From: Sinohyriopsis cumingii
Taxonomy: Eukaryota > Mollusca > Bivalvia > Unionida > Unionidae
Length of the DNA: 64,000 nucleotides
Assembly (NCBI GenBank): GCA_028554795.2
Contig: CM068831.1
Location: 67,679,982 to 67,743,981 of the forward strand
Direction of reading: 5' to 3'
Position 1 is the stretch's first letter. The number at the start of each line of letters is the position of its first letter. The position numbers and the translations under genes are program-made. This document shows, one piece after another, positions 9,413 through 43,623 of the stretch. A model generated the notes under the pieces. That model worked only from the letters and a program-made list of their open reading frames with translations. It did not search any database and was not told where the DNA came from.

Positions 9413-9552
9413 GTATTCACAGACTTCTAACCAGTTACTGATATCTTAGTCATCTTCGAACTTAGAGGATGCACAACAAGTTAACTTATAAAAAAGGAAA
9501 TGTATAACTTACCACTGCACATGAAAACTGCAAAAAGCATAAGTGACTCGTT
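9413..9552. other. Unit 1 spacer before the LINE insertion
   Basis: Short non-coding stretch matching 38738-38870 in unit 3. It ends at the target site of the Jockey-like element. Unit 3 has lost about 35 bases exactly at the equivalent target position, while unit 4 (near 58090-58135) keeps a continuous, uninterrupted version of this junction. Confidence 0.6.
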
Positions 9553-9567
9553 ATTTCTACTTTATAA
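9553..9567 (+). repeat. Left target-site duplication of the Jockey-like LINE
   Basis: The 15-mer atttctactttataa is repeated exactly at 14336-14350, on the other side of the retrotransposon. A direct repeat of this size flanking an element with an endonuclease domain and a simple-sequence 3' tail is the normal mark of target-primed reverse transcription. Confidence 0.9.
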
Positions 9568-9827
9568 ATACCACCGTTGCCCCTATATTATATTCCTTTA
9601 TCTTTCCCTTTTCCAAGTCTTAGAAGACTTCCTAGAAGGCGGTGGCTCAACGGGTCAATCGGGGGGTAATTTTACCGACCTTAGAAATTGGCGACTTCAG
9701 GGTCAATCAAAGGTAATTTTATCAACTGAGTATGGCATCTGTGTATCCCTGACACTTGAAAAGTGTCCCCTTGTTGGGCTCCTTGGTGGGTGGGGAGCAC
9801 GGGTGCTGAATTTTTATTCAAGCCATC

Positions 9828-10974
9828 ATGGATAATTCCACAAAAAAAAAAAAAAACGTACCAAAACTGGACCAGAGTCTGATGATGAGCCATGTAGTGT
9901 GGAATCCTTTCCTCGCTTTATGGTCATCCAATCGAAAAACGAGGCTAAACAACTTGCTGCACTATCGCCATTTATAGTCGAAAATACTATACTTGGATTA
10001 GTCGGCAAGCCGAAAAGTGTAAAATAAAACTAAAGTCAGGCGGCCTACTTGTAGAGTGTGTTCGCAAAGCACATACTGAAAATATCCTAAAAATTAAGAC
10101 CTTTCACGATATTCCAGTAACCTGCTTCGCCCACTCTACACTTAATACATCAAAAGGCGTCATTCGTTGCCGTGATCTAGCTGAAGTTAGCGACAAGGAA
10201 ATCGTCCAGGGCATGAAAAATGAAGGTGTCACTGCAGTCCGCAGAATTCGTATCAAACGAAACAACAATCTGCAGGACACCAACACTATTATACTAACTT
10301 TCAATAAGCCAACAGTACCTAAAGTGGTCAAAGTTGGATTCTTACAAGTTAAGGTTGAGATATACATACCAAATCCCCTCCGATGTTACAAATGTCAAAA
10401 ATAAGGTCATCATGAAGACAGATACTCTAGAAGTCAAGTATGCGGCCGATGCGGCGACCCCTCCCATCAGGAATCAGAGTGCAAAGCCACTCCGCATTGT
10501 GTCAACTGTGGCAAGGAACACCATGCTAGTTCAAAGGAATGCGACACATGGAAACAAGAGAAGGAAATCCAGAGGGTTAAATACACATCCAACATCCCCT
10601 ATCCAGAGGCCACGAAGCTTGTTCAAGCTAGATCACTCCCCGGCCCATCCTTCTCAACTGTAGTGAAAAGCAGCCAAAAAGCAACGTAAGACGCCCAAAC
10701 TCAAACGAACCCACCTGAATCCCATTCCGACTCGAACATTCCGCGCTACAAACCCCAGAAAAACTCAACATCGACGCAAAAAACACTCAACAATACTCCA
10801 CCACCAAGATCACCAAATAGCAAGAAAAAGTCACAAACAAATAGACAGCACAAAGCTGCACAATAGGTTTGCAGACTTAGAGGACATGGATGCAGAAGAA
10901 TCTGCTCCATGTCCTCAAGGTAGCTCCAGACCTAACAACAAAAAATTCACCACCGTACTTCCTTCAGAGAAATA
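9828..10974 (+). pseudogene. LINE ORF1, gag-like RNA-binding protein with CCHC knuckles (broken)
   Basis: The reading begins with an ATG at 9828 and a lysine-rich N-terminus, passes a stop near 10021, then resumes with a gag-like segment and three zinc-knuckle motifs: CYKCQK-GHH near 10384, CGRCGDPSHQESEC near 10441, and CVNCGKEHHASSKEC near 10498. The spacing fits the retroviral-type CCHC knuckles of Jockey-clade ORF1 proteins, which bind element RNA in the ribonucleoprotein particle. Stops near 10402 and 10687 and frame changes break it. A proline/serine/glutamine-rich tail follows, and an open stretch ends near 10974, just before ORF2. The end is approximate. Confidence 0.8.
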
Positions 10975-11033
10975 ACCACATTGCCTATGCGAAAGGTCTC
11001 ACCTAGCTCCAGAATACTCAATATAAACGTATA

Positions 11034-11884
11034 ATGAAGAACACAATCATACAATGGAACTGTAGAGGACTTAAAGCCAACTACCATGATATTCTTCTGC
11101 TTCTAAACGAACATGATCCTGCAGTACTATGTCTTCAGGAAACTTTTTGAAAGCTACGGAGAATATCACACTTAAAACCTACTCCCTGTTTAACACCTAC
11201 TCACAGAATGTTGACAGGGCCTCAGGAGGAGTCTCTGTTTTTGTAAACAACAGAGCCCCTCATAGCTTCATCCATTTAAACACCAATTTACAAGCCATTG
11301 CTGTAAGCGTCACTCTACATCGAGTGATTACATTTTGCTCTATTTACTTACCACCAAACACTAGCCTAGTACCAAACGAACTCGACAATCTTGTTCAACA
11401 GCTTCCCGCACCCGTTGTTTTACTCGGGGATTTTAATGCCCATAACATTTTATGGGGATCAAATCATATAAGTGACAGAGGTCACAAAGTTGAAGACTTT
11501 ATTTCTAGACACGATATGTGTCTATATAACACCAAAACACCGACATATTTACACCCAGGCACGGGTACATACACATGCATCGATTTGACAATTTGTTCTC
11601 CTTCGCTGCTTTTGGACTATGAATGGAAGGTTGCTGATGACCTTCACAGCAGCGATCACTTCCCAATCTCCCTTGTAAATCTTAACTCTACAATTGATGA
11701 AGTAATTCCACAATGGAATTTAAAGAAAGCCGACTGGGCCAAGTTTGAAACACTCTGTAAAACTAGGCTGAATGAGGATACAGTTTTCAATGTTAACGAC
11801 CACATTCAGCATTTTACATCTATTTTAACCGACATTGCAGAAGAATCTATCCTCAAGTCCTCAACAAACTCAAAAGAACCCTAA
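11034..11884 (+). pseudogene. LINE ORF2, apurinic-type endonuclease domain (frameshifted)
   Basis: The frame from ATG 11034 gives IIQWNCRGLKANY, the typical start of an AP-like endonuclease, then LCLQETF. A frameshift in the run of T near 11144 moves the reading to the frame open to 11884. Downstream motifs fit the family: VVLLGDFNAHN (metal-binding GDFNAH box), then SSDHFPI near the end of the domain (catalytic SDH box). This enzyme nicks the genomic target to prime reverse transcription. Another frameshift near 11880-11900 separates it from the linker. Despite the breaks, all the expected catalytic boxes can be read. Confidence 0.85.
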
Positions 11885-13245
11885 AACCTTGGCTCACTAA
11901 GGAATGTAAGGAAGCCATACGACAACGTCGAGAAGCCTTGAAAAAATTTAACAATCATCCGACGCCCGAGAATTTAAGTAAATATCGTATTCTCCGGACC
12001 AAAGCTCGCCGCACAATCAAAGAAAGTAAACGAGCATCATGGAAGAAATATGTTTCCACTTTAAACTCTCGTTCCTCAATTAAGAAAGCTTGGGACACGA
12101 TCCGCAAAATAAACGAAAAGAGAAAATACTTTTCTTTCCGATATCTGAAACTGAACAATAACAATTTTAGCTCAAAACGTGACATAGCAGATGTTCTTGG
12201 TGATACAGTCTCTAAAAATTCCTCATCATCTAATTATTCCGAAGCCTTCCAAAAATTGAAAACTCAGAAAGAAAAGTCACGTTTAAAATTCACATCCAAC
12301 AACTCGGAAAGTTGCAACCAATTGTTTTCACTATCAGAACTTACGGAGGCTTTAGACAAGGCCCATGATACTTCCGTCGGGCCTGACGAAATACAGTACC
12401 AGTTTTTAAAACATCTTCCAGAATCATCTTTAACATCTCTTTTGAAACTCTTCAATGATTTATAGATTACTGGTAATCTACCTAAGATGTGGAAAGAAGC
12501 AACAGTAATACCAGTTCCCAAACCCGGTAAAGATAGCGAAGATCCTAACAACTATCGACCTATTGCACTCACAAGCTGCGTGTGCAAAACAATGGAACGA
12601 ATGATCAATTCTCGGTTTGTATGGTACCTAGAAACTAACAACTTAATATCTCCTTTCGAAAGTGGCTTTCCATATGGACGGAGTACCAACGATCGTTTGG
12701 TTAGACTAGAAACATTCATTCGCGATGCATTCATCAAGAAAGAACATTTAGTAGCGGTTTTCTTTGATTTAGAAAAGGCCTATGAAACAGCATGGAAGCA
12801 CGGGATACTAATAGACCTGCACGATCTAGGTCTAAAAGACTGGCTCTGGGAGCATTTAAAACATCCCGGTGTGAAAGCCTTCTACCTGAGTGAACGAACC
12901 ACCGTTATCGCATCGTAGAGAACTGCTTTCCGCACAGTATGCTCTCAAATTAAAATCAAACCCTCTGAATCCTGCTTTTTCGGCTGTTTTTCAACCCAAA
13001 TACAAAACTTTATACGAAAATAAACCAAACGCCATACCTTCCTTTGGCATTAGAATATCCTCCAGCCTTGACACTACAAATATAGATCTTTCTAAAATTC
13101 AGAAAACGTCTATCTCCGAAACACCACCCTGGCTAATTAAACAACCAAAAGTACGTTTTACGCTACACGATGGAAAAAAATCCGAAACAAACCCTTCTGT
13201 CTTCCACAACTCTCACCATTAACTCCTCACCGAATTTAAAAACTA
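11885..13245 (+). pseudogene. LINE ORF2, reverse transcriptase segment with catalytic core deleted
   Basis: The linker (PWLTKECKEAIRQRREAL) leads into the RT fingers: SVGPDEIQYQFLKHLP near 12380, WKEATVIPVPKPGKD at about 12490-12540, NNYRPIALTS, SGFPYGRSTND, and AVFFDLEKAYETAWKHG near 12755-12800. An in-frame TAG at 12463-12465 interrupts it. After DLGLK (about 12835) the reading jumps in another frame to LALGAFKTS and ESLLPE, then NEPPLSHRREL from 12892. In related elements these lie several hundred bases apart, so the QG box, the YxDD active site and the thumb are missing. The deletion breakpoint lies at about 12835-12850. Confidence 0.85.
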
Positions 13246-13255
13246 CACCAGAATT

Positions 13256-14043
13256 TACACTGATGGATCAAAGGATGATGAAAAGGCTACAGCAGCCTTT
13301 GTTTGTGGAAATCACACAACGCAAGTTCGCTTACCAAATGGAGCATCAATTTTTACAGCCGAAATCAGAGCAATAGACCTTGCTCTGCAACATATAGAAA
13401 AGAAACCTATTTTAAACAGTATCATCTTCTCCGACTCGCTATCAGTGCTCCAGTCACTACACAATAGAAAACTGGAGAACCCATTATTGAAAAACATACT
13501 CGTCATAAATACCGAGCTGAGTGTCTCCCACAATATAATGTACTGTTGGTTACCTAGCCACATTGGTATTAAAGGTAACGAAAAAGCAGATCGCGCTGCT
13601 AAAATGGCCCTTACTCAAGAACCATCTGATTTTAAAATACCGCATACTGATTTTAAACCTTGTATCAAAAAGTTATTTCGTCAGAAGTGGCAGGCATCAG
13701 GGAATGATGCATTGAATAACAAACTGCATGCAATCAAGCCAACTCTAGGAGAATGGACTCCTTCCTACAGAACCATTCGTAGGGAGGAAATACTCATTGC
13801 AAGAATCCGAATTGGTCATACTTACATCACCCACTCCCACATACTAAAAGAGAAGACCCACCAGAGTGCGTTTCTTGCAATGAACCATTCACTGTCAAGC
13901 ACTTTATGATAGAGTGCTTTGACCTGCAACCTACGCGCGATCGTTATTACCTTGTTCATGACATGAAAGAACGTTTTGATACTATAAACATCACTCGTAT
14001 TATAGAGTTCCTGAAAGCAGTAAATATTTACTCTAAACTCTAA
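13256..14043 (+). pseudogene. LINE ORF2, RNase H domain and C-terminal Cys/His segment
   Basis: The RNase H catalytic series is legible: YTDGS at 13256-13270, FTAEIRA near 13355, FSDSLSV near 13428 and WLPSHIGIKGNEKAD at about 13548-13590, which supply the acidic and histidine residues of an RNase HI fold. This domain degrades the RNA strand of the RNA:DNA hybrid. After a frameshift near 13855 the C-terminus reads ECVSCNEPFTVKHFMIEC, a knuckle-like C/C/H/C cluster common in Jockey ORF2, and the frame closes with TAA at 14041-14043. The RNase H part is otherwise little damaged. Confidence 0.85.
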
Positions 14044-14335
14044 CTTTTATGATATCACCTTGTGGAGTTTTATGCAATATATATACCGTCCCATTTTAAT
14101 ACCTTTTCATCATTTTTCATTAACTTAGAATAATTACATCCCCCGTTGATCGGGAAGCTTTATTTTCCACCGTTACCGTCTTACCGTTTTAATTTCAACT
14201 ATGTTTTTTATATCGCTGGTCGATATGAGACTTTTTATAATTTTTAAAAGATTATACAAACAACATTTTGTTTGGCGCTAAATAGCCTTACAGTGCTGAT
14301 GCGCCGTTAAAAATAATCAATCAATCAAACAATCA
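14044..14335 (+). repeat. LINE 3' UTR and simple-sequence tail
   Basis: Follows the ORF2 stop and ends in tandem ATCA/ATCAA units at about 14315-14335, directly abutting the right target-site duplication. A short tandem tail in place of poly(A) marks the 3' end and fixes the plus-strand orientation. Confidence 0.8.
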
Positions 14336-14350
14336 ATTTCTACTTTATAA
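14336..14350 (+). repeat. Right target-site duplication of the Jockey-like LINE
   Basis: Exact 15-base repeat of 9553-9567. Directly after it the unit 1 sequence resumes with gtaataattg, matching 38871 onward in unit 3 and about 58126 onward in unit 4. Confidence 0.9.
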
Positions 14351-16872: not shown

Positions 16873-17661
16873 ATGTTTTGTTCAGTGTTCTTTACCATGA
16901 CAATGGTTCGCTTATTCTTCGCTTTCCTGACGTTCTCTAAATTGCTTACAAGCGGACATCCTCAAATTAATTGTGGAAACGTCACTTCATCTACATGCCA
17001 AAATGTCTCTTTTGGAAAACCAATTGACTGCCAGGACATTTACCAAATGGGTTTTACAAAGACTGGAGGCTACATTATTTATCCCAAAGGACATCCTAAT
17101 GGTATCTACGTTCGATGTGACATGCGTACAGCCGGTGGAAGATGGACTGTCATTCAGAGAAGAATCAGCGGAGATGTTGATTTCTTTCGTGAGTGGATTG
17201 ATTATAAAGAGGGTTTTGGTGATCCAAATGGAAACATGTGGCTCGGAAATGACAATATACATGACCTCACGGCTCAGGCCGATTACCAGCTGCATATAAA
17301 CTTGGCTGTTTCAAATACAAATACCAGCTTTGCCATGTATGATACTTTCTCGGTTGGAGACGAAAGTAGTGGATATCGTCTCATCGTAAAAGGCTACAGT
17401 GGAACAGCAGGCGACTCTTTCTCTTATCATTCTGATATGAAATTCACCACCAAGGATTGGGACAAGGACAAAGACAATTCTTCAAATTGTGCCAGTATAT
17501 ACAAAGGCGGTTGGTGGTACAATACTTGCCATACTTCAAACTTAAATGGAATCTACGGATCCACCAATTTTGGTGAAGGAATAAATTGGTTTGCATATGC
17601 CGGATATCATACATCCATGTTACATGCAGACATGAAAATAAGGAGAAAAGTTTCACAGTAA
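16873..17661 (+). CDS. Secreted fibrinogen-related lectin (FReD protein), copy 1
   Basis: Uninterrupted 262-codon frame without introns. Residues 1-28 form a hydrophobic signal peptide; Met1, Met9 or Met11 could start, and I chose Met1 as the first after the TATA box. A short linker holds Cys34 and Cys42, possible inter-chain bonds, and NVT and NVS glycosylation sites at 36 and 44. The FReD domain runs from about Cys53 to Ile256, with GGRWTVIQRR, FREWIDYKEGFG, NMWLGN, the calcium loop at 197-206 (DKDKDNSSNC), GGWWYNTC, NLNGIYG and MKIRR. Disulfides are expected for 53-82 and 206-219. There is no coiled coil, collagen or Ig domain, so it resembles tachylectin-5/ficolin heads more than snail FREPs. 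It probably binds acetylated or glycan ligands outside the cell in innate defence. The C-terminal 65 residues differ strongly from copy 2. Confidence 0.96.
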   Translation: MFCSVFFTMTMVRLFFAFLTFSKLLTSGHPQINCGNVTSSTCQNVSFGKPIDCQDIYQMGFTKTGGYIIYPKGHPNGIYVRCDMRTAGGRWTVIQRRISGDVDFFREWIDYKEGFGDPNGNMWLGNDNIHDLTAQADYQLHINLAVSNTNTSFAMYDTFSVGDESSGYRLIVKGYSGTAGDSFSYHSDMKFTTKDWDKDKDNSSNCASIYKGGWWYNTCHTSNLNGIYGSTNFGEGINWFAYAGYHTSMLHADMKIRRKVSQ

Positions 17662-19106: not shown

Positions 19107-19737
19107 AGGACTTTGTATAGCACCTAATCTTTAGAAGCTCGAAGCGCTTTACAACTTTAGACAACACCTATAAGATAAAAACATATAATAATATTATTAC
19201 AAAAACAAACAACATGAAATTAGAAAAAAATTAAAAAATAAAAAACATACTGAAAATATTTCAGGTAGGAAACATTATTAAGTCTTTACGTTTGTTCTTG
19301 CAGTCCAAATAAGTGAGTTTTGAGAGCCCTATTGAATGTCATCATTGTGTCTTTGTGTCTAAGTTAAGTTGTCAATTCATTCCACGTTGCTGGGCCCTGG
19401 TATGCAAAAGAACGCTGTCCATATGATTGTCAGAAGAGGAGCTTAAATATCTTGCTGGTGTGTACACATGGGTGAGGTCAGATAGGTATGTTGGACTAGA
19501 GTCCGACAGTGAAACGTAGCACAGAGAACAAATTTTGTGTTTGATTCTGGATCCAATGGATAGCCAGTGTAGGGTACACAACAGCGGGGAGGTGTGCTCT
19601 GGTCGTGATACTCTTAGTATGATAGGAGGAGCTGTGTTTTGAACGTTTTGACGTTTTTGGAGTAGATATTGAAATGAACCAGACAGAACTGACTTACAAA
19701 AGTCCAGTCTTGGAAGTACTAATGAGCACACAAGTGT
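19029..19737 (-). mobile_element. CR1-like LINE fragment, unit 1 copy (C-terminal ORF2 plus 3' end)
   Basis: The minus strand from 19737 down to about 19372 encodes the C-terminal end of a CR1/L2-type ORF2: LVCSLVLPRLDFCKSVLSG, then TSPLLCTLHWLSI and YLSDL-HVYTPARYLSSSSDN. A 3' UTR follows with the widespread GCGCTTCGAG-type end and an ATT-repeat tail at 19029-19106. The palm, including YADD, is absent here but present in the unit 3 copy. The right edge at 19737 is an abrupt deletion junction. The fragment is non-functional. Confidence 0.85.
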
Positions 19738-20134
19738 TACGAACTTAAAGCTACTTTTTCTAATGATTGATTTCAAAATTATTAATGAATATCCGACTTC
19801 TTTTCTTGTTTGAACTTTGATCAAAAACTCGTTAGAAAGCGAAAATACTCAAAGGCTCCCGAATGCCTATCCCTACATAAATATCGTGACAAAATACACT
19901 CTGTACATCAAACAGTGGGTATAGTCAGAAATTACAAGAGCATGGTTGTGTAGCACAGTTATTCAGAATTTACTATCAGCGCATGTGAAATTTTGGAAAC
20001 CTTCTTCGTTGTGGTCTAATAGTTCAGTGGCCAGTTCAGTTCAGCGCCTTGTTCAGTGAGCAATATCACAAGTCAAAGGGACATACGATTATTTTTGTGT
20101 GGATGGGTTGAGTGTGTGAAAATAACAGAAAAAG
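19738..20134. other. Block D remainder after the CR1-like fragment
   Basis: Non-coding, matching 45622-46040 in unit 3 almost base for base. In unit 3 about 1.3 kb (rest of the LINE plus a block F piece) lies between this segment and the equivalent of 19737, so unit 1 has lost it or unit 3 gained it. Confidence 0.65.
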
Positions 20135-21930: not shown

Positions 21931-23104
21931 GCAGAAGAGTCAGGTAGAATATGCTTGTCATCCTTCACAATGCCCATCTTATTCAGATCTTGAAAACAGA
22001 TTCACACCGATGACTTTCATGGTAAGACATATTCTTATTAGGAAACCTTGTATTCTTTAACAACGTTTAATAATCTACTCGTAATATCTCCACTTGTATC
22101 ATACGTCTTGTTCGCATCCTTTAGAAGATTTTAAATGGACGCATAATTATCTAATTATTCTTGTCATTAACAACATATTTCTTTCCTGTATATGTGATAT
22201 GACAGCAATTCAATGTTATTTCCATATCATCTTGCCATGTATTTCTGATACTGGTTCTTCACGCGTTTGCTTGTTTCATTTCACTGTTACAATTCGATTG
22301 CTGGAACATTATTATGCAATTGGTGAAATACATGCTTATGTTCTTCATTTCCAAACAACTCTTATCGTGATAATTCAAATAGTTAGTATCTGCAGCAGTA
22401 GGTAGATAAGGAAAACATTAGCAGCAGTTACCTTTCTCATTTTCAATTTGTTTCATATTCTAGTGAATGGATGACAAAATGACCAAATTATCCTCTTAAA
22501 GTTTGCAATGCCTCAGTTACAATACATGACAAGAATGTTGTACAGGAGATAAAGTCAATGAAAGATTTCACCACCAGCAAATATAGATGTTATTTATGTA
22601 CTTTTAGTTTTGATTATATTACGACCCCAACATTGTTGAAAGTACATGTCCAAATAACGTAGAAAAGAACGAGGCGACATATTATATGTCCAACCCTAGT
22701 CAAAATCCTCCTTTTCCTTTATTTATCATATAAAACTAACACGGTGCTGCTTGTGAAATCCTCAGTGTTTCTGCAAGTTCAATATTTAGCTGGAAATGTA
22801 ATGTATTTAAATACTAGTGATTTGGTATGCGACTTAATATTATAACGCTAACAGATTTTTCATACAAAGTATTCTAGGAAGGCCAAGAGATAACACCAAC
22901 AACTCTGGGGGTTTCGTTTCTAGAAAAATATAAAATTATTAATTATAGTGCATATAATTTATCGACTATTCACCTAGAGTGTTTCGGTATCTCATAATCA
23001 ATGGCATGATGACAAGGCCGATTCAGATGAATTTATAATGAATTGTTCATATCGGTCTTAGCATCGCGTCGACATGGATAATTAGTATTTAAATCCCACC
23101 CCTT
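21929..23104. other. Unit 2, diverged block C
   Basis: Non-coding sequence aligning with about 15625-16780 (tcacaatgcccat..ttattcagat near 21970, then shared landmarks at about 22180, 22650 and 23020). It is clearly more diverged from unit 1 than unit 3 is. It leads straight into the decayed lectin promoter at 23105. Confidence 0.6.
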
Positions 23105-23225
23105 TTTGTATTGCCACTTATGCATCTTAAAAACATGGACACACTTGTTAAACATTTCCTTATCCAGCTATACACTAGAACAATTTCTTAATGATAATGT
23201 TTTGTTCAATGGTCTTTACGTATAC
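23105..23225 (+). pseudogene. Third lectin gene relic: promoter, leader and first codons only
   Basis: This matches the promoter and leader of the lectin genes: tttttgta..ccacttatg, a decayed TATA region, then ATGGACA, acatttcc..atccagctata, and the start codon at 23197 followed by ttttgttca. Homology to the coding region stops after about 23 bases near 23219. The sequence then continues as block B (equivalent to about 4255), so more than 97 percent of the gene is gone. With the TATA box changed to cttaaaaaca and no signal peptide or FReD domain, it cannot make a lectin. Confidence 0.8.
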
Positions 23226-28218: not shown

Positions 28219-29176
28219 AAAATGTGGGTCGGGCATCTCTCAGATTATGGATGAATATTTCGTTGGTCTTCACACCGAAAGAAATGTTAGATAATTTGCC
28301 TGAAAGAACATCGAGACCGCCAACGAAATGTGGAAATTTAGTTTGAAGATCCTGAATGACACTTAATATTAATACTTAGCAACCTGCAGGACCCCACCTG
28401 TCAATCCCGGAACGTTATGAAGATCGTCTGCTTAGTTGTGTCGAAGCTGATATCATTCTGAATGGGGAAACAGTACTATCTCTTTTATATGTATTTCATG
28501 TGCTTAATATAAAATATTCCTTTATGTAAAGTATATTCTAAGGCGAGTGAGTCAATTGAATAGGAATCTTGTTTATTCTTTTCATATTTAAATTACTGCA
28601 ATTTCCAAGTTCGGTGCAGAAACTAGTGAAAAACAGGTCCATTTTGGGCTCAATGAATTGACGTCTGCACTAGCAGACTTGGAGAGAATGCTGTTGACTT
28701 TTTAACAGGCGCTTGCACTGGGCCCGTGACTGAATAAAAACAATATTTTCTTTGATCCTTGTTGTAGGATAGAATTGAAATACATTTAGACATAACTATC
28801 TGCATTCTTTTATCTTCAACTATTAACTATTCATCATCTATTTACTTCAAAGAGAAGACATAACATCAGCTCCCGGCGTAAGATCCAACGAAAGGTCCTG
28901 ATCTACGTCGTTCAAAATTACATCACAGCTTACGTAAAAATGTTTATCTAGAATGTGAAATGCCAGTACGTTTCTTTCCATGTAAAGATATACATGTACG
29001 CATAGATCATAAGTAAAGCTTTCGGCAGCTCTGTGGTGGTGGTGGTGGTGATGGTGGTGGTGGTGTGTGTGTGTGCGTGTGTATGTGTCATTATAGATGA
29101 CAAAACGTTGGTCTCCACAAGGAGTTCCATAATGCAACCGCTCTTGTTAAAATAACTTTAAATATGGACAGTAAAT
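28219..29176. other. Block F, preceding the unit 3 left arm
   Basis: Non-coding. Its first part (28219-28440) matches 45031-45240, and its second part (28500-29176) matches 46152-46799. In units 3/4 the two parts are separated by about 0.8 kb. It contains a GGT microsatellite and runs directly into block A at 29177. Confidence 0.6.
29033..29090 (+). repeat. (TGG)n-(TG)n microsatellite
   Basis: About 10 TGG units with one TGA change, then TG units with a CG interruption. It accounts for the histidine/threonine-rich minus-strand ORFs here, which are not genes. Confidence 0.9.
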
Positions 29177-32100
29177 CAAGATGAGAATGGCGATGGAGAT
29201 ACATATTGATTTATTTCACATATCCTGATTTTTTAAATAGTGTGATGAAATATTTGGCATTATAACACCTCTTGAAAAAGAAAGAAATTACATAGGTCAC
29301 CATTGTTGAAATGAACATAGAGAAAGCACAATTAGTAGAATGGTAAATGAAAGCATATCAAACGAAATACAAAACACAAGTTGGTATTTGTTTTAAATTC
29401 TGCTGCACATCATTGAATTGATTCGTTTGATTTTGAAAATCAATATTTTTGTTAACAAAAATACAAATAATACCAATTTATTTTCTATTGACAGCTTTTT
29501 GTGTAATGACGTATTTGTAGTCTGAAGGCAACACTGTTTATTCTTAATCGCTTTAGGGAATGTTAGAGACAGACTTAGTAAAGATCGAGGAATTTATAGA
29601 AGGACGAGGTCTTTTTTTAAAATTTAAGTAGCAAGAACTGACATAGACAAGTTTATCGAACTACTGATTGAAAGGGAAATAAACTTCAACAAGAACAACA
29701 ATAAGTCGATACTATCACGCTTCCATTAGGTTTGAGCAACTTTTCTTACTAACACAAATAAAAGATAAACACTGACTCATCTTCAATTCAACAGATAAAA
29801 TGTGGCCACTTTCATTTGCTGTTGCATACGTATAAGAATATTACGAGTCCACGTTCAAAACAGTATATCCATACCTCAACCACAAGTCAGAAGCCACTCC
29901 CCAAAAGAGAAAATACTTGTCTACTTTCTTTAAAACTTTTTGAAAAACAAAGAATACTACCACCATGGAGGAGGACATATCACTTAAACACTTTCCATAT
30001 ATTTCAGTACAAAATAATCAAAATGACACCATGTCCAATATCTCACTACGTCACAACTTTACTTACTACTGTATTAATGAACTCCCTAAAATAATCATTT
30101 CCCTGACATTGTTAGTGCAACAATTTACTTACTACTAATTAAATGAGAACAATATGCAAGACATCAGGACATGATTGGAACAAGTTGCCAATACATTACT
30201 AATGTAAGCATTATTGAACAGAATAAGTATTGAGAGACACCTGAATCACAGAGCTCTAGAAACAGATTCACAAGAACAGAAGAAAGATTTTTATAAGCTT
30301 AAGACCTGTTTAACAGAGATTCGGTACTATCTACTACCATCCAAGTCATTTAATCGACTTGACATTGAGACAGCTGATTCGCATAATGTTCAATGACACG
30401 TATATATCCCATGGAATTCGGATCAACAGAGGAAAATATTATTGGAAAGCGACTAGCAGAAAATAAAATTAAAATTTAAAAAAATTAAAAATACCAACAA
30501 AAGATAAAAGGTGAAAGAAGATGAATGATTACAATACATTATTTAATGGCCTGGACAAACAACATCGTAGCAAACACTACACTTTGCAAAGTGTTGAGCA
30601 GCAAATTAAAAACGAAAAAATATAGCCATAAACCTCATGAAGCTGAACGAATTAGTTGCTAGATCTATAGAAACAACATTCAGTCTATCCATTCATTTTT
30701 AGACTGGATTCATGTAGTCAAAATGAAAAAGGATGTCACATTCAAACAATTAACAGCACAGTAAAAGCCACCATCGTAAAGCACACATATGATTTGGTTA
30801 TCTACGTTAATTATCGAATTATAAGTGATATAAGAGAGCGGCACTATTTTTTATGACCAAATCTTTCGATGTAACTTACTTTTGTGACATTTGTTACTGT
30901 TTCGACATATCCCAATATCAAGCAAGTCTGATTCAGCAAATCATCACATCAGGTTAACACTTTTGTCAAGGAAATAAGCGGAAATAACTTCAAAGAGACG
31001 CCATCTGACGTCAACTTTATTGTTTTTTATTTACAACTGCTGTCGTTATTCGTGCTGTCCCTATTGCCACTGACAAGCAAATGGGACTGAGACTCGCATA
31101 CATCTCCCTTTAAATACATGTACATATGAATACTTCCTGTGGGCCGAATACAACACTTGGAATAGGCAGCCATACCATGGAGACATGCCAACCAGAACAG
31201 TCTTCTCAGTAACCATTCTATTTGCAGGTGGAACGCTAACAGATTTATTTCTGTTTTCATACCTCATGTGCATCCCATTGATGTATCTTTCCACATCTAT
31301 GTCCAGCTCAGGTAAAGTTTGCAGGGCGCATCAGGATAGTCTTTGAAACGTTACAGATCGTTGGATTGCTGACTATCTATGTGAGTCTATGCCACAGTCC
31401 AAAGCTGGAGCCACTAGTGTGCTAGAGGTGAATTTGGGTCAAGTCTTGAACATTGAGCCAGTACAGGTAATCTAAGTGCTTGTTTACAAAATAAAAATAA
31501 AACTATTTATATGCCTGAATATTCCGATAGATCCTTCATTTCTGCGACGTTGTTTATTTCATGCACTGGCTAGGATTCATGTTTGTGTGACACAAGAAAA
31601 TAAGGATATCTTTTCAAATTTACTTCTGGAAATTGCATGCATTTGCTGTATATGCAAAGTTTTGAAATACATTTAAGAAATGTATTGTTCACACCATATC
31701 TAGATAAACAAAGGTAACATATGTTAATGTTGCTCATCTAATTCGTTTTTCCCAAATCAAAGAAGCAAAGAAAAGAATACACATGGAGCGAATGGGAGTT
31801 CCTAGATTGATTGACAATCTTCCGAACTATGAAGTAGATGTGGAAGCTAATATCACATATAAGCATGTCCAGATAGAAATGAAACAGGAAGAACCTGACC
31901 GCCACTCACTATTTTGAAGTGTGGCATGTTGCCATAGATGTGTTTATAGCACATTGTTTACTACACCAACTGATAATGGAAGAACCCTATTACTTTTACA
32001 GGGTAGAGACAAACAAAGAGCCCTACATCAAATCAGACAGAAGAATATGCTTTAATATGTTTAATTAAATGTGCAAAAAAAATAAAAATCAGTTGATTGC

Positions 32101-35100
32101 CAGGGAACAAAACTTTTAGGATCTGAGTAACCGAATTTACAGCATTTCAAAAAACGTCAATGGGTGTTTCCAACACTGATTTAAAAAAATTGTATAAGTA
32201 CTTGAAGTTCGTTTAACTTATCAATAACATATCTGTGACAGATAAATATTTTTCTATCGGAGGAGAGCGAGAATACTGGGTTGAATACTGCTGTGTACGT
32301 AAATGATATAATAGAGTTTGTGATTGAGATATTTGATTCAGAGCAATATTTCTTCCTCCTTGTTTGATTCGGAGCAATATCTCTATTCTACGTTAATAAG
32401 ATTTACGTATATTCAAAATGTAAACATCATAGGTATTTCTTGTGCCAAAAAACCTACACAATATCTGGAAAAATGCACACTAACATAAAATAATATTTTG
32501 ACTCTAAGAAACAGAGAAAGCAAGCTAAACCAATTTAGTAAATTTCAACAAATAATGTATTTCTCTAAAATACACAGGGAATTTTAAATAGAACTTAATG
32601 TTGAGAATTAAAATCCAAACAATTTTAACATTTCTATCATAAGCCCAAAAGTATAGAGTGCTTTGATTGAATTCCAGGTTTTTATTGTGCTTAAGTATCA
32701 ATAGTGTTTAATGAGCTGATATGTCAGCAGTCTTGATGTATCACAATGATATAATCTAGAATATCTTTCAATGAATTCACAATAATCCAATAGAATGATT
32801 TAGCCTAAAATGTCAGTGAGCACTTAGTAATTTCAATTAATAATATAAATAAATAATTCCTCTCAAATTACATCTTATACAAGTAAACATAATCTTCCCA
32901 GACTGGTGATAAAATAGCAAAGATCAATTTGTTTACTTCAGAACCCTATATAAAAGTATAAGACGCAATAAGATGTTCAGGATGATGATAATTTTCAATG
33001 GAAATTTCCATCAAATTCGTAAATATATTCATGTCTATTCGCATCAGCTAAAGCAACTAAGGAGACCATATACAATTTCCAAGGAGAAAATCAGAGTACT
33101 GAACTCAAATCTAACTAAACATTTTGTTTACAAATGAATATTATCTAAAAGTAAAATCTACAATACTGGACATGTGCTATCTATATAATGTGTTGCATAC
33201 AAAAGACAGTAGCAATTTTCAGTCATGGCCAAAAATTAAATACACAGTACAGATATACATAATATGAACCCATATCTTACTTGCTAATCACAATGTACGT
33301 GTAAACCCTTTATTTCACGTGCTCTTTGTTTCTCGGGTATTAGTGTATCGATTAAACCATGACTAGTATGATCACTATGAGTAGACGCATATAAAGGAAA
33401 AGGACCGTCCCGATTGTTAAATATAGTTAGCGACGAAAAGTTGCTTTTTCAATCGTTCACTCAAGTAGTCAACTGTTTAGGTTTTATCGATGTTTTTCAT
33501 TTATTCTTTATTTCCTTCATGCCTAACTTATTTCTTCAGCATAACGATAATTAACTTGAATATAAAGTTGCTTTTATTTTAAAATGCGAAATCTTTACTT
33601 ATTGATTCTCCTGTAGTAATTGCTACTGAGGCTATAGGCTTCATTCAAGAGGAACAAACTTTAGTACTGCTCCTAGTATCACATGCTGATTCAAGACCTT
33701 CTCTTTTGTTTTACTCTCAAATGACTAAAACAGAGTTCTATTAATTAGTTTGTTCATTTTTTTCTTTTAACGCTGTAAATTTAAGTCAATGATCTCTGCC
33801 TAATGTCTTTTTCGAGTGGAATTGTTGTATGATTTCCACGGTCCAAATAATAAAATCAAAGCCAAAATTATTTAAATTGTCAGTTCTCAAATTGACAAAT
33901 ATTGTGAACGATCTTGCTTTATTTTTTTAATGACGAATCTCCTTCATCTATAGGGTATAAGATGTATTCAGCACATCATATAGGAGCATAAATAGGTCCA
34001 TAAAATGCAGCTAATTATTTTATATATTTCTTTGTTTAGTGTTATTCAGCTACAAAATTATCATTTAACGCATGTTTCAGTTGAAATACATTATCTCGTC
34101 TACAAATTGGAAATCTACATTTAATTAAATCAGTTAATATAATTTAGCTGGGATACTAGTGGCAAAGGATACAATGCAAAATTCGAAGAGATATTTCAAA
34201 ATAGTGTTATTTTCATTTTGCATAACATTCTTGTTCGATTTTGACAACTAATTTTTCAAATTCAACCGATTTTACTTACAATGTAATACTTTCTCCGTGT
34301 TGTATTCTATTTGAAATATCTATTTTTCCTTTCTGTCGCCTTTAATTGCATTAAAGCGGGCACTTAATGCATACGTCTGTTAACCACTTGTGTCTTGAGT
34401 GAACCTGTATCTTCTATAAACCTTCCTTACAAATCATTTAAATGTCTCCGAAAACACTGGCGAATTTTGGGTTTAAGACAGTCGGAGCCAAAAATTATTT
34501 TTTTAATCTGCATTTTCTAGATATTCCAGATTATTTGGTATCATTGTAAAGCTACATCTGTCTACCTTTCTATAATAACACCCACTGTAGTGTATCATTC
34601 TACTGTTGTTTATTTCGTCAATACTGTCATCCACCACGCTGATATCAAGACACAACATCCCGATCACGACTTAGACTGCATAGTTTATGTTTTGTACTAT
34701 TCTTTGAATCTAACATCTTATATCGTTTGGATTTCATCAATCCAGTATAAAATGAATGGACAGTTTGCATGTCAGTTTCATATATCTTACCATGAATTAA
34801 TTCACTTCTATTTCTTTAACTGTTCTATTTCTCTTCTAAGTCTCTTCTTCTGCTGCCTGGGAACTGTGCTGTTGTCGGTGTTAGCTACGATATTGATTGT
34901 TTCAGGCCAGTAATGTATATGCTGAAATCATTCATCTTTTTCAATAACTTGATTCTTTTTTTCAAGTTGAGATTTAAAGGGTCAGAATTTTCCGATATTT
35001 TGGAATACTTTTTTTCTAAAATTATTTCTTCAACAAGAACATATATCTCTGTTAATCTTCGATTCCATAGGTTATATATCATCGAAGATAAAGCGAATCT

Positions 35101-37619
35101 TCTGATGATTGTCTTGTCTATCCAATGACTTGAAAAGTAGTCGATACAGTTCTGAATTTCTATCTAGACACATCAACAGCTTCTAAAATTGTTCTGCTCT
35201 GGTGGATGTCTTTCTACAGCCATGGAATTGTGGCGGCTTCTCTTGTCATTCTATTAAATAATGATTATTAGTAATTTATTGTCCACCTGTTCCCTTCATC
35301 TCTTGATGTCTTTTAAATCGTTCACTCTAAACTAGTAGCAAGTAAAGTAATCAAGTAGTAAATTCAAAGGCATGGTTTTGTGGGGTGTTTGTTATTGCTG
35401 CTGAAAGTGAGCTAATCATGTAGTGAAGTAAAGGACGATCTGATTTGTTTCTTTATTTTACCCTAAGAAATACGGAACGTGGTTCTTTTGTAAGGTATAT
35501 TAAATTGTGGTGGCTTTGCTTTGTTTATGATACAGTAGTGAGGAAGGTAGTTAACTATTATTTGTGTGGGTTTGCTACATCAAGTGACTCATTGGGGTAA
35601 TGTGTAGTAGAATTAAACAAATAAAAATAAAATAACAGAACTGTGTTTTCATGGTATCATTTATGATTCTAATAATTAAGTTGTTCCATGTTTATTTCTA
35701 GCACGGTGATCATCGTAGTTCCTATAGATTTAAAAAATGTATACCACTCAAACAATTGCTTCCAAATAAGTTTTAAAATCTAGATAGCAGAAATAAAATA
35801 ATCATTTGCACACTCGTTTCCTCCAGAATCAACTGTAATTAAATCCTATGTATATTCATATGCTACACTTATGACTACAGTGAAGAAACTATTTCTGTCA
35901 GCAACATCATTGTCACTTTGACCTACGTTTGATTATAAAACATCTTTCAACATGTAACTTGTTTGATTACCTTACATTAAATTTTCGTGACAACAGGACC
36001 TGTAACGAGAACTCAACCTGAAATAGATGTAGACCAACGTTATATTCCCGATAACGCCACACGCACACGACCGAAGTGACTTTAGTGTTTAGTATTATTT
36101 CGACGCTCACCCCATCAAGAAAAATTTACCTTCCATGCACTTCTGATATTCTTCACTGAGCGAGGAATTCAAATCCAACGAGGTTCCCAAAAGTTCACAA
36201 TTTCTGCATATGCAGATGATAAAATCTGAATAACAGAGCGAAACATACTTTTTTATTTGGCCTGTGCAAAAGAGCACATACCCAATATAATACATGATTC
36301 ATGCACAATACACTGTTGCATAAATGCCAGAATATTTGACTCAATAATGCCTATACAAATGTGCGCATAAATCATCGGAGATGGACAGAGAGAAATACAA
36401 CTCTACAGCGAGAGACGATAATCTAAGTTGGAATGCATTATCAGCATATTTACTTAGGTGTTTTAGAGTTCTTAAATCTTCATTTTTGTGTAATTGAAGT
36501 AATTGGTACATACCTGGTTTCTGCCAGTAATAAGGATCAAAATAAATTAAAATGAAATATGTATTTTAGTCTCTGGTTACAAAACAATAAAAGGCAAGAT
36601 ATATTAGGATATTACCACATCTCCATGACCGTGAAGTCAATAAAATAGTTATCACACTGAAAACCCAGTTTTTACAATTCTCTCTTATAAAATCTGTAAG
36701 CATTAATTGTTATATTTTTTAACAATTTAATTATTTGTGTTTAGCAGTTTTAACCAATGCTTAATGATGCGCACGTATATATTTAAATAAAGAACATGTG
36801 GGCCCAGCTATCCATTTTCAAACATATTGTTGGCAGGATGTATAATATCTAGTATCTACATGCACTTTTTCCTATGTACTCGTCCTATACTATCTGCTTT
36901 CAAAACCACCCAGCCATAAGACAATATTGGAGATTCAAATTAATCAAATAAATGAACCATTATATTCACCAGACATTCTAGAATGTTAGTATTATTCAGA
37001 AGTAATGTTTTCTATGTACCCGTCATATACTATCTGTTTTCTAACCCCCAAATATCACAGCCATAAGACAACATTGGAGACGTGAATTTTCAAATAATTG
37101 AACCATTATATTTACCAGACATTCTAGAATGTTAGCATTATTCAGAAGTAATGTGGCGCACACCTCTGCTCTTGCAAAGTCTGACTGTATGCCCTGAAGT
37201 CGGAGAGGCATTGATCATTAATCAAAATGTAATAACAAAACCAGTGGCTTCAAGTTAGTGAGCATTTCCTGTGATAGTACTGTTGAAGTGTCACATATAC
37301 AAAAACACTCACTTCGTATCAATCAAATCAGTTGTTATAACTCTGTAAACTAAATCGACTTAAAAACCATGTAAAGATCTCATTTCCTTTAAAATTTGAA
37401 CAGTAACCTTGTATTGGGGACTTTTTATTTATCTCTAATCACCTACCGTTGCTTATTTGTCAAACAACCACATAGATACTGTTCTTGTCATCAATGTATT
37501 CCATATCAGAGTGAGCCATATATCAAATTATATTATTCTTGCTGTACAAGGATTAGCTAATTTTAGGTAACCAATGAAGTATGTAGAAAGTCTTGCATGC
37601 AGTCAGCTATTGGGTCCTA
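29177..37619. other. Unit 3, left arm of the segmental repeat (blocks A and B)
   Basis: Non-coding counterpart of 1-8274, colinear with an offset growing from about 29,176 to 29,350 through small indels. Differences are scattered substitutions plus a local duplication near 36870-37150. The ORFs seen here either read through non-coding sequence or lack a counterpart in unit 1. For example, the 111-codon minus frame at 5142-5477 is broken at 34440-34760, while 34590-34913 opens on the opposite strand. Confidence 0.75.
36868..37152 (+). repeat. Local duplication of about 140 bases, unit 3 only
   Basis: Two adjacent versions of the segment from tatgtac(t/c)cgtc to ttcagaagtaatgt, where unit 1 has one (about 7665-7803). 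The second carries aaatatcacagcc, which the first and the unit 1 copy lack but the unit 2 relic shows near 26825. Confidence 0.8.
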
Positions 37620-38737
37620 TGACAAATATCGGTTGCCCAGATAAATTCATCGTGATAGTTCGGTAATTCATCATGGCATGCACGCTCGTTGCATAGAAGA
37701 CGAATAGTCATGTGAATCATTCCATGTCACCAATGGAGTCAAGCAAGGTTGTGTGTTGGCCCCAATCCTCTTTAGTATGACGTTCTCTGCTATGCTTACT
37801 TATGCTTCCTGTGACCATGACAGTGTGATTGTATCCGATACCACACTGATGGCAAGATCTTGAATCTATGGAGAGTGCAAGCGAAGACTAAGACATAAAA
37901 TTACTGTTCGTGGTCAACTATTTGCCGACGACTGTTACCTGAATGCCTCATCTGAGTCTATGGATCATTTGTTGTCAGCTTGTAATTATTGCAATTATTA
38001 TATTGTTTGGTTTGTGCTGTGAATGATGCAGACCTAAACTGATAAGGGAAGGTGGTGGTTTTATGTTACAGTCCTAATCAATGATAAAACCAACACCATA
38101 ATTGCTAAAGCAAGTGTGGGCTTTTGCAGTCTACGAGCAAACGTGTGGGTGCGAATTCTACAAATAAGCTGAACGTCTACAAAGCCGCTGTGTTGCCAAT
38201 CCTATTATATGTTTGCTAAAACGCTATGTTAAGAAGCTTAATCATTTTCACATTGGCCGCTGTGGAAACTGATTAGGATACGATGGCAGGACATGGTTTC
38301 AGAAAATGAGCCTCTCACAAGGGCAAACATTCCAAGTATTCACATTCTGCTGATGACATCACAGTGAAGACTGGCAGGACCCATCGCCAGGATGGTAGTA
38401 TGTCAGAAGAGCGACTACTTCAGAAGCAATTTTACGTTGAGCTGAAGGAGGGGAACTGATCTAAGGGTGGTCAAAAGAAACGCTTCATAGATGCCGTCAA
38501 GACATCTTTGAAGCACTTCATCTCTGACCACGAGCCTTGGGATGATCTCGCACAGGATCCCTCCCCTGACGCAGTTTCATCCCTATTGGTGCTAAGGACG
38601 TTGAACAGATGACAAACGAAGAGGCATGAAAGAAGCGCCAGCAACGTAAATCTCGGAACTACAGCACGTCCTGCATTGATCAATCTATCCCAACCTGCAC
38701 ATGCTTCCAAGTGTGGCACAGTCTGTAAATAGCACAC
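37620..38737 (+). pseudogene. Decayed RTE/L1-like reverse transcriptase remnant, unit 3 copy
   Basis: Same remnant as at 8275-9412, at the same place in the unit. VTNGVKQGCVLAPILFSMTF is read near 37730-37790, which restores G and F residues changed in copy 1, and the GGQKKRF motif is at about 38465-38490. Stops and frameshifts are present throughout. It is a passenger of the duplication, not an active element. Confidence 0.75.
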
Positions 38738-41364
38738 ATTGACCTGATCTCATGTATTCACAGACTTCTAACCAGTTACTGATATCTTAGTCATCTTCGA
38801 ACTCATAGGATGCACAACAAGTTAACTTATGAAATGGGAAATGTATAACTTACCACTGCACATGAAAACTGTAATAATTGGCCTCGCAACCATTTGTAAA
38901 AGCAACCTGAATTCAAAGCAATAAGGTTAATTGTTTCTTCACTATTCAGCACAACGAACTCTTGGAATAATGCAGGAATTTTCCATTCAGTAATACACCT
39001 TGGTACAAATTAATTTTGATCTAGGTTTGTCTTCCCATAAAGGTGTTTGAAGACTAGTTATATCACACAATCGTTATCTATAACATGTTGTTCAAATTGT
39101 GGACGGTATCAAATCATCACTTTATCACGCATTTGAAAAATGTGTTCATTCTTTATTTGTAGCTTCTTCTTGCAATCTTTTCTTTTTTGTTCCTCCTTAA
39201 ATTTGAGAATCAACCATAGATTTTGATGTCTAACAAATCAACATTCCTGCAATAAAAAAAGGCTTTTAAGGGAAGGTATGCAATTCATAGGCTCTCAGTA
39301 AGACATGAAGTGAACACTTAAGATATTGTAAAAGAATTCCTTAAACGGACAAAGTAACATAATATTATTGTGACGTTCTAGAATGGTGTAGTTTTGAGGA
39401 ATATGGAAAAGTAGTATTATACGGAAGACAAGTCCATATCATATTTGGTTATAAATACATGCGACTAAACTTCTCTCGTACACTTATTTGGAAACAAGTA
39501 AAGGAAGAATACCCATTACACGCAAAGTGTCCACAAAAATGGATTATTTTGTACAATACATTAGGCATATTTGAACTGTTATTAATATGATCGCATTTGT
39601 ATTAATAGATGCCGCTGATATTTGGCTACAATATTCATAAGCAATTGAAAACGTAAATGGTAAGAGTTTTACTAGATATGGAATCTTCCTAGAAAACAAG
39701 CATACTCCCTGCTGACACAATGAGAATACTGACCAAGTACGTCTGTATTTTACCTATTACTGTAAATTAATACTGGATTATGATGGATGGTAATTGCTAT
39801 TCATGACAATGCTATGAACACTGAAAATAACTCGACGAACCAGGTAAGTCAAAATGTGTTACAAATTTTAATAGTATACACTTCCCACATGGTTTGGGTT
39901 ATAACAGGTACGTATAGGCTGTAGGTGATGACAAAGTTGTCCTATTTTACCTATTACTGTAGATGTAGTATTTACCATCTGAAAATATCATAAAGACAAT
40001 TTAATTCAGAAATGGAATTCAAACGTAATAAAATGACATAAAGCATCCCACTACAGTTGCATTACACGTAGCCATTGAGTAACCAACGCATCTCTTAATG
40101 ACTTTAGAGTAGCGTATATATTGAGCATTGTGTGCGTGTGAGTGTGAGACACAAGGCAAATATCATGTTTCACAATGCCCATTTTATTCAGATCGTGAAA
40201 ACATATTCTCCACAGGGATTTTCTCAAACGAATTCAGGCGTAATATCTCAACTTGCACCATATGGCATTTCAGCATCCCAGAGAAGAGCTTCAATGGAAA
40301 TATCATTCACTAATTAGTACTTGTCACACCATATCTCTTTCACCCGTATGTAATATATATTTGATATTTTTCCAATGTCGTCTTGAAAAGTATTTCTACT
40401 ATTGATTCTTCATTTTTTCGCTTTTTTCATTTCACTGTTACATTTGTGATTGTTGAGCCATTGTTATGTTGGTGTATGTTTATGCTCCACATTTCCAAAT
40501 ATCGCTTTCATGGACATTGCAATAGATAGCATCTGCAGCAGAAGGTATGGATAGTAAAATGATCATTATTATTCTTTGGTTTTAAACGATTGCAATATCT
40601 CAATCACAATGCATGTCAAAAATGATGTATACGAGATAAAACTATAAGAGTGTTTACCAGCAGCAGAAGGACCTTTTCACTATTCACGTTTCGTTTTGAT
40701 TATATTATTAGCCCAAAGTTGATGATATTACGTGTCCAAATAAGGCAGAAAAGAATGAGGAGACAGGTTGAATTTCAATACCTGGTTAATATTTTTTTAT
40801 CCATCATTTATCTTATAACCCTAAAACCTTACCGCTTGTGAAATTCACAGTCTCTCTCCAAGTTCCATATTTCACTCCAAATCTAATGTATATAAATACG
40901 AGTGATTTAGTACGAACTTAATATTATATAGCAAACAAAATGTCATCCAAAATAGTTTATGAAGGCCAAGAGATAGTACAGATAGCTCTGTAGGTTTTGT
41001 TTCTACGAAAATATGAAATTATTAGTTCTGGTGTATATTGAACTAGATTTTAGCCGCAGTGTTTAGTTATGTTATTTCTGTATGCCAGAACTTAATTTCG
41101 TATTTGAGTATCACTTTATTCGTAGTGAGGTTAATTTGTACAATTCACTGTATTAGTTGGGCTGCAATTCACCTCGTTGGAGAAAAAATACTTTCTCGTC
41201 TAGAAAAATAGTTATATTTTATGCTGACAAAGTCTATTCGGATGAATTTATAGTGGATTGTTTACATCCGTCTTAGCATTCTTACCCAATGAAATCAATG
41301 CGTCGAATTGGATAATTATTATTCAAGCAACACCCCCTTTTTGTGTATTCCCACTTATGTTTCT
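38738..41364. other. Unit 3 block C, upstream region of lectin gene 2
   Basis: Non-coding; 38871 onward aligns with 14351 onward. There is no LINE at the position that carries one in unit 1, and about 35 bases just before it are missing (catgaaaactg joins taataattgg near 38870). The end is the proximal promoter of the second lectin gene. Compared with unit 1 it keeps extra sequence near 40800-40900 (atccatcatttatcttataa and following). Confidence 0.7.
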
Positions 41365-41372
41365 TATAAATA
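41365..41372 (+). promoter_or_regulatory. TATA box of lectin gene 2
   Basis: TATAAATA lies 69 bases before the ATG at 41434, the same octamer and spacing as in copy 1. The base before it differs (CTTATAAATA here, CGTATAAATA in copy 1). Confidence 0.7.
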
Positions 41373-41433
41373 TGGACAGCCCTCTTAAACATTTCAACAT
41401 CCAGCTATACGCTAGAACAATCCTTAACTGACA

Positions 41434-43590: not shown

Positions 43591-43623
43591 ATAATAATAA
43601 TAATAATAATGATAATAATAATG
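43591..43623 (-). repeat. Short (TAA)n tail of the CR1-like fragment
   Basis: About 10 TAA units with one TGA. The homologous tract in unit 1 is more than twice as long. Confidence 0.85.

Follow-up and report, generated by a model that had tools for sequence, protein, structure and literature searches.

A tandem array of fibrinogen-domain genes in the pearl mussel Sinohyriopsis cumingii: diversifying selection on the pocket half and a near-uniform scaffold

Diversified lectin families are known from molluscs, but in the literature found their variable positions are not tied to a known ligand pocket. The tandem C1qDC clusters of oysters (PMC6835236) resemble the genes described here in being a bivalve immune-type, lectin-like family expanded by tandem duplication, with few positively selected sites and a domain that is otherwise mostly under negative selection. 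They are built on another domain, however, whose ligand sites in bivalves are virtually unknown according to that paper, whereas in the mussel array the selected sites overlap crystallographic contact positions and the scaffold looks homogenised. The FREPs and sFReDs of Biomphalaria glabrata (PMC7588048) are likewise a large mollusc fibrinogen-domain family; BgFREP3.2 variants are reported to derive from gene conversion together with point mutation, sFReDs are reported to bind parasite molecules, and PMC8678459 cites Hanington and Zhang 2010 for positive selection acting on the FREPs of B. glabrata. FREPs differ in their IgSF domains and reported somatic variation, the mussel genes being without IgSF domains. 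A large bivalve fibrinogen-domain family, comprising 158 FBGDC genes in Crassostrea virginica, has also been studied for its response to a parasite (PMC8678459), but in the available portion of that paper selected sites are reported for TLRs and none were found for FBGDC. For the insect FBG/FREP families, altered pocket residues were proposed to broaden the range of sugars recognised (PMC1242226), and the terms "positive selection" and "gene conversion" are absent from the main text of PMC1242226 and PMC2429915. Positive selection at few sites is therefore already known from tandem bivalve lectin-like genes (PMC6835236) and from FREPs (as cited in PMC8678459), and pocket diversity has been suggested for insect FREPs (PMC1242226).

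By sequence, the mussel proteins share the FReD domain, the Ca-loop aspartates and the Cys206-Cys219 disulfide with ficolins, tachylectin-5A and FIBCD1 (PMC3908420, PMC10825690). The pocket of FIBCD1 is invariant in 17 proteins, whereas the mussel array replaces the equivalents of Tyr405, Tyr431, Ala432, His415 and Trp443 in some or many copies. Selected codons that match the known FReD pocket, this reversal with respect to FIBCD1 and a homogenised scaffold are new relative to the literature searched. That search, in which few subscription papers were covered, returned no title on FReD-pocket selection in unionids, and "Fibrinogen", "FREP" and "tandem" are absent from the main text of the S. 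cumingii genome paper (PMC10969987). Pocket variability is raised in Mercenaria and in other unionid sets as well. The array offers 17 naturally occurring pockets carried by scaffolds that are much alike, making specificity diversification in invertebrate immune repertoires directly testable. As S. cumingii is pivotal in Chinese freshwater pearl production (PMC10969987), disease resistance gives the question a practical side.

The array and its copies

The window, the whole stretch of 64,000 nucleotides that was analysed (C8:67679982-67743981), holds two FReD genes, A and B, each within an array unit (Table 1). Both belong to the Fibrinogen_C/FReD family, with PF00147 scores of 222.5 and 228 bits against a cut-off of 22 over profile positions 3-219/221. 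PF00147 is the sole profile match in the two 262-residue ORFs and no IgSF domain was found in them, so that they lack the IgSF plus FBG architecture of mollusc FREPs. Their N termini are hydrophobic, as judged by eye; small FReDs consist of a signal peptide and an FBG domain only and are secreted. Protein searches place A and B among genes of unionid mussels, with matches in Potamilus streckersoni (75%) and Sinanodonta woodiana (68-73%), and the S. woodiana genes carry neighbouring locus numbers, which suggests a run of such genes there too.

Table 1. Coordinates of the genes, tracts and array units in the window
Feature	Position	Strand	Description
FReD gene A	16873-17661	+	Single unbroken ORF, 262 aa; Fibrinogen_C domain at residues 51-257 (PF00147, E 7.7e-66)
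FReD gene B	41434-42222	+	Single unbroken ORF, 262 aa; 94% identity with A (PF00147, E 1.7e-67)
Gene A, codons 197-262	17461-17658	+	Ca loop, second disulfide and acetyl-pocket half; diversifying selection array-wide
Gene B, codons 197-262	42022-42219	+	Pocket half; 13 residues unlike A
Homogenised scaffold tract in A	16898-17465	+	3 of 568 sites unlike B; 359-bp identical run at 17107-17465
Homogenised scaffold tract in B	41459-42026	+	Counterpart of the A tract, offset 24561
Array unit with gene A	1-20168	+	Includes an inserted element, 9537-14350, absent at the matching place in unit B
Array unit with gene B	29176-46049	+	7.4% difference to unit A (15090 aligned columns, genes included)
Remnant of a further unit	23006-23219	+	Start of a FReD gene with its upstream region; similarity stops after the first codons: truncated unit

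A PF00147 search over the assembly of 2,904,868,851 bases, in which 150 of 151 candidates were scored, gave 127 matches, many of which form one run at C8:67.03-67.76 Mb that contains the window. Thirty-seven stretches were fetched. With A and B included, 21 of the genes are close copies. Of these, 18 are intact and free of indels, one (L035) is intact with indels and two (L015 and L021) have an in-frame stop. The codon models were applied to the 18, leaving out these three and the linker-bearing relatives (L010-L014 and L032-L034). In both L015 and L021 the reading frame closes after codon 227 (NLNGI), one having TAG and the other TAA. L023 and L030 lack an ATG at codon 1, their frame opens at codon 9 and translation may really begin at a later ATG; L009 is unlike these two in that codon 1 is its only ATG there. 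Near the array, L012, L014, L032 and L033 have a Cys-rich linker (CPCHCACNCYC-like) ahead of the domain, as in other unionids. This linker is absent from A, B and the close copies, and the oligomer state may consequently differ.

Bivalve assemblies are prone to allele and haplotype artefacts, and the copies might be alleles or collapsed haplotypes that were assembled one after another. The closest copies are separated by only 1-2% in their flanks, and with a heterozygosity of 0.92% (PMC10969987) a few could be alleles. For the array as a whole an artefact is extremely improbable: flank divergence among copies averages 8-11%, far above the heterozygosity, units A and B do not share all their inserted elements, and the S. 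woodiana locus numbers likewise suggest a gene run.

Replacement change in the C-terminal half

The preliminary description had read diversifying selection from the A/B comparison of codons 197-262 (the C half). Its counts are exact on recounting, with 19 base differences, of which 18 fall in 13 replacement codons and one in a silent codon (203), and with two-base changes at all five of codons 201, 209, 221, 233 and 234. By themselves, however, these counts are insufficient for the conclusion drawn. The noncoding flanks of A and B differ at 245 of 3715 sites (6.6%), and at this rate 10.6 replacement steps would be expected in the C half, compared with 16.5 observed (P = 0.064). One silent codon or fewer among 19 random changes has P = 0.125 in neutral simulation, and five or more two-hit codons P = 0.01. 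Codons 1-196 (the N half) contain four base differences, three replacement and one silent. The pairwise test of A against B for selection was not significant, and the pair by itself is weak evidence for selection.

Another genus provides an independent set of sites. In the seven S. woodiana short forms listed, columns 197-258 have a mean entropy of 0.66 bits, compared with 0.27 for columns 50-196 (P = 1e-4), and the 13 C-half codons that are hypervariable in them were taken as an a priori set. At these codons pN between A and B is 0.33, five times the 0.066 of the flanks (P = 2.6e-5), compared with 0.050 at the remaining 49 C-half domain codons. When the same mask was laid on flank windows, 11 differences were reached in 0.76% of 13906 windows and in none of the 2263 windows with 17-21 total differences. 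The C-half sites most variable in FIBCD1 proteins also give P = 0.003 in A/B, and part of the A/B signal is therefore general tolerance.

Across the 153 pairs formed by the 18 copies, the C half has pN 0.102 and pS 0.058 (pN/pS 1.76) and the N half pN 0.022 and pS 0.045 (pN/pS 0.49). C-half pN exceeds pS in 144 of the pairs, so that silent changes as frequent as replacements, named beforehand as grounds for abandoning the idea of selection, did not appear. A codon bootstrap places C-half pN/pS between 0.95 and 4.49, and at the 13 a priori sites the ratio is 2.69 (1.06-14.94).

Site models were fitted to the 18 copies with in-house code (F3x4, a single tree per run, Nelder-Mead) in place of codeml or MEME. 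This version of the site-wise test that the preliminary description had proposed gave different outcomes for the two halves. For the C half, 2dlnL is 68.2 for M7/M8 (P = 1.6e-15) and 55.2 for M1a/M2a on its own tree, rising to 89.1 and 84.3 for M1a/M2a on the whole-CDS and N-half trees; for the N half no positive selection was found (M1a/M2a 2dlnL 2.07, P = 0.36), although sites 9, 19, 41, 46, 75, 169 and 172 still reach a posterior of 0.9. The optimiser is rough, with eight null simulations giving 2dlnL from -3.4 to 5.9 (one negative), an error of a few units that lies far below the signal, and six simulations at a true omega of 1 returned 0.77-1.78. The one-ratio omega of the C half varies with the tree used (0.77 on its own tree, 2.22 and 4.93 on two others), and the models presume one tree, whereas the copies recombine or homoplasy is common. 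Thirteen sites have an M8 posterior above 0.98 (201, 204, 209, 218, 220, 221, 233, 234, 240, 241, 245, 251 and 260). Of these, all except 204 and 251 exceed 0.9 whichever of the three trees is used (by M8 for the first tree, by M2a for the others). Site 210 has 0.89 on the first tree, is listed on the N-half tree and is absent on the whole-CDS tree. With omega above 1 in nested site models, albeit in-house, single-tree models with a rough optimiser, the array has the property that marks a positively selected multigene lectin family.

Closely related copies were also compared. Four close pairs (L027/L028, L023/L030, L026/B and L022/L029), which are reciprocal nearest neighbours in the upstream flank at a difference of at most 2.3%, were chosen after the neighbour analysis, leaving out L029/L031, which is close downstream only. 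Summed over the four, the C half has 18 replacement and no silent codons and the N half 13 and 8. Only L027/L028 is significantly above its own flank rate in the C half, with 11 of 198 sites different at a flank difference of 1.5% (P = 3e-4; seven replacements, none silent). The C halves of L022/L029 are identical, and those of A/L018, L026/B and L023/L030 are not above flank rate, the downstream flanks of L023/L030 differing by 6.8%.

Relaxed constraint would offer a simpler reading, in which the pocket half of redundant copies is free to drift and neutral change mimics selection because most sites there are replacement sites. The A/B C half, at 9.6%, is in only borderline excess over the flanks (P 0.05-0.06) and its silent count is not unusual; two of the 21 close copies carry an in-frame stop; and C-half pN is above the mean flank difference in only 84 of the 153 pairs. 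The concentration of A/B replacements on codons designated from another genus, the rejection of omega <= 1 by the site models and the invariance of the structural residues D197, D199, C206, W214, W215 and C219 in all 18 copies make this reading very improbable. Diversifying selection on the pocket half is supported.

Variability of the acetyl-pocket equivalents

Pocket positions were mapped by sequence alignment to FIBCD1, for which the S1 contact residues are named in the structure papers (PMC3908420, PMC10825690). An AlphaFold model from a 19-row alignment had a mean pLDDT of 59, with five of the seven ten-residue blocks of 191-260 below 50, and was consequently unused for burial or fold search. 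The S1 equivalents are 210 (Tyr405), 217 (Arg412), 218 (Asn413), 220 (His415), 233 (Tyr431), 234 (Ala432), 245 (Trp443), 185 (Lys381) and 186 (His382). The full contact set has 11 positions and was also tested as nine, as the Ca-loop alignment is uncertain by one residue; the nine-site set was used for the array. The mapping of variable sites, which had been called for on a structure and was done by this alignment, places five of the 13 top M8 sites (218, 220, 233, 234 and 245) among the seven C-half contact equivalents (P = 0.0024). Several further top sites adjoin contact equivalents, and 251 and 260 are selected without being contacts. Variable sites scattered through the buried core, the other ground named beforehand for abandoning the idea of selection, are not suggested by this sequence mapping. 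Position 217 lies outside the selected sites, and 185 and 186 belong to the N half, where no selection was found.

The nine contact sites are more variable than the rest of the domain in every mussel and clam set, and the opposite holds in FIBCD1. Their entropy is 1.28 compared with 0.16 elsewhere in the array (P = 2e-7), 1.54 compared with 0.34 in the seven S. woodiana paralogues (P = 8.5e-7), 1.10 compared with 0.47 in ten unionid long forms (a set without P0140, P0143, P0146 and P0164) and 1.29 compared with 0.66 in the six Mercenaria proteins listed. Within the S. cumingii genome, contact sites likewise exceed the rest in the long form (0.87 vs 0.38, P = 0.0017, 8 genes) and the linker form (0.97 vs 0.25, P = 8.5e-5, 5 genes). 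In 17 vertebrate FIBCD1 proteins, hand-picked among more FIBCD1-named entries and grouped by name only, they never vary (0.00 vs 0.40 elsewhere). The C half of Mercenaria is not faster than its N half (0.63 vs 0.71); the N/C contrast is thus a unionid feature in these sets and the pocket contrast is wider.

The preliminary description had the calcium aspartates, both cysteines and the aromatic framework kept between A and B. The first part stands: D197, D199, C206 and C219 were recounted as identical in the pair and, as the equivalents of Asp393, Asp395, Cys401 and Cys414, are invariant in all 18 copies. The aromatic framework is not wholly kept, since two of the changes, F233H and G234V, affect positions that correspond to the acetyl-pocket lining residues Tyr431 and Ala432. 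At the positions of Tyr405, His415, Tyr431 and Ala432, A has Y, H, F and G and B has Y, H, H and V; among the 18 copies the FIBCD1 residue is present in 13 at 210, 13 at 220, four at 233 and ten at 234. Position 233 alone takes nine residues and is neither Y nor F in 11 of 18 copies, position 234 is E, S or V in one copy each, and six pocket residues occur in 17 distinct combinations. Many copies have lost the Tyr/Ala acetyl pocket, and with it probably the ficolin mode of binding acetyl groups. For these genes, "lectin" and "ligand specificity" are themselves predictions from sequence.

Scaffold homogenisation and the proposed explanation

What stands out most in the A/B pair is that codons 9-197 are nearly identical, even at silent sites, which is far outside chance. 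No 568-site stretch outside the CDS has fewer than 22 differences, compared with the three of the scaffold tract, and the longest identical run outside the CDS is 96 bp, compared with the 359 bp of the run that stops within codon 198. Codons 1-196 have one silent change in 122 sites where 8.05 are expected (P = 0.002), a depletion beyond the effect of protein-level selection alone, which was therefore read as gene conversion.

The same asymmetry is found across the array. Copies differ on average at 2.7% of nucleotides in the N half and at 9.4% in the C half, where the difference is the larger one in 152 of 153 pairs. At four-fold sites, pi is 0.018 in the N half (71 sites) and 0.055 in the C half (15 sites), compared with 0.085 (790) and 0.095 (630) in ungapped flank columns, so that N-half diversity is about five times below the flanks, and none of 20000 flank resamplings was as low. 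Gene conversion among copies is indicated by this scarcity of silent differences in the scaffold, a conclusion that is well supported; constraint on silent sites could account for part of the scarcity. Strong purifying selection alone might instead be held responsible for the scaffold identity, in keeping with the N-half pN/pS of 0.49, the failure of M2a to be favoured there and a counted N-half pS (0.045, with 0.15 in codons 184-196) that is about half the flank value, a smaller gap than at four-fold sites. Given the silent-site depletion and the length of the A/B identical run, this account is distinctly unlikely. The scaffold, described earlier as held fixed, is near-fixed (the 18 copies have 16 protein versions of residues 50-183), but gene conversion appears to be a large contributor besides purifying selection, and several pocket aromatics vary.

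Relationships among the copies depend on the part compared. Many of the 18 copies change their nearest neighbour from one part to another (N half, C half, flanks); protein trees join A and B in the N half (99/95) and do not in the C half; and distance matrices are only partly correlated (Mantel 0.42 for N-C, 0.14 with P = 0.07 for C-downstream, and P = 0.09 for the N half with the downstream flank). The N half has 117 incompatible site pairs among 630, the C half 25 among 136; a PHI-like test gave no evidence of distance-dependent recombination (P = 0.37). The changing neighbours and the discordant trees and distances would suit C halves that arrived as ready-made cassettes from diverged paralogues next to a recently converted N half. 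However, the A/B silent divergence of the C half (0.069) equals that of the flanks (0.066), so that an older import is not needed, and the C halves of the window genes share their nearest relative with the flanks: L026 is nearest to B in the C half and both flanks, with A and L025 nearest in the N half, and L018 is nearest to A in the C half and downstream flank. Import would moreover relocate diversity without creating any, and the pocket sites must have diversified somewhere. Cassette import is thus an unlikely source of the pattern.

The explanation that we consider very probable as a whole combines selection at the pocket with conversion among scaffolds. A and B are members of a tandem array in a unionid mussel whose genes encode putative recognition proteins of the fibrinogen-domain-only (FReD) type. 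The N-terminal three quarters of the copies change slowly and about a dozen codons of the last quarter, including FIBCD1 acetyl-contact equivalents and their neighbours, are under positive selection, so that nearly every copy has its own pocket. Gene conversion among copies probably homogenises the scaffold, silent sites too, and conversions into the pocket half would be removed by selection or would not persist, leaving nearly one scaffold with many pockets. The copies are predicted to be secreted and may together form a germline-encoded humoral lectin set whose members differ in glycan specificity, under pressure from microbes or parasites. A bolder extension, which we put forward tentatively and as rather less likely to hold than to fail, is a germline variable-lectin repertoire with labour divided within one exon: conversion would pull the scaffold to a consensus, selection would block conversion past approximately codon 197 and drive a new pocket in nearly every copy, and individuals would differ in copy content and pocket set, perhaps with additional somatic variation of the sort reported for a Biomphalaria FREP.

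Mutagenesis of the kind directed by diversity-generating retroelements, in which adenine-specific changes are copied from a nearby template, was considered and rejected. Adenine is in neither copy at five of the 19 A/B differences, 14 of the 19 involve A compared with 57% of flank differences, and tblastn within the window gave no further FReD match able to serve as a template.

Retroelement sequences are present in the array units. The element inserted in unit A (9537-14350) is non-LTR-like, with endonuclease and reverse-transcriptase matches and an RNase H match under the cut-off. In unit B, a stretch on the minus strand (43932-45620) bears a reverse transcriptase; its 44290-45619 portion is without counterpart in unit A, which retains only the neighbouring part (19372-19824). 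Between 400 and 800 of the window, local divergence from unit B is 23%, compared with approximately 7% around it, and may represent a misalignment or a replaced stretch. Further intact FReD genes lie at C8:65.8-66.35 Mb and 78.67-78.90 Mb, in addition to five linker-bearing relatives near the array.
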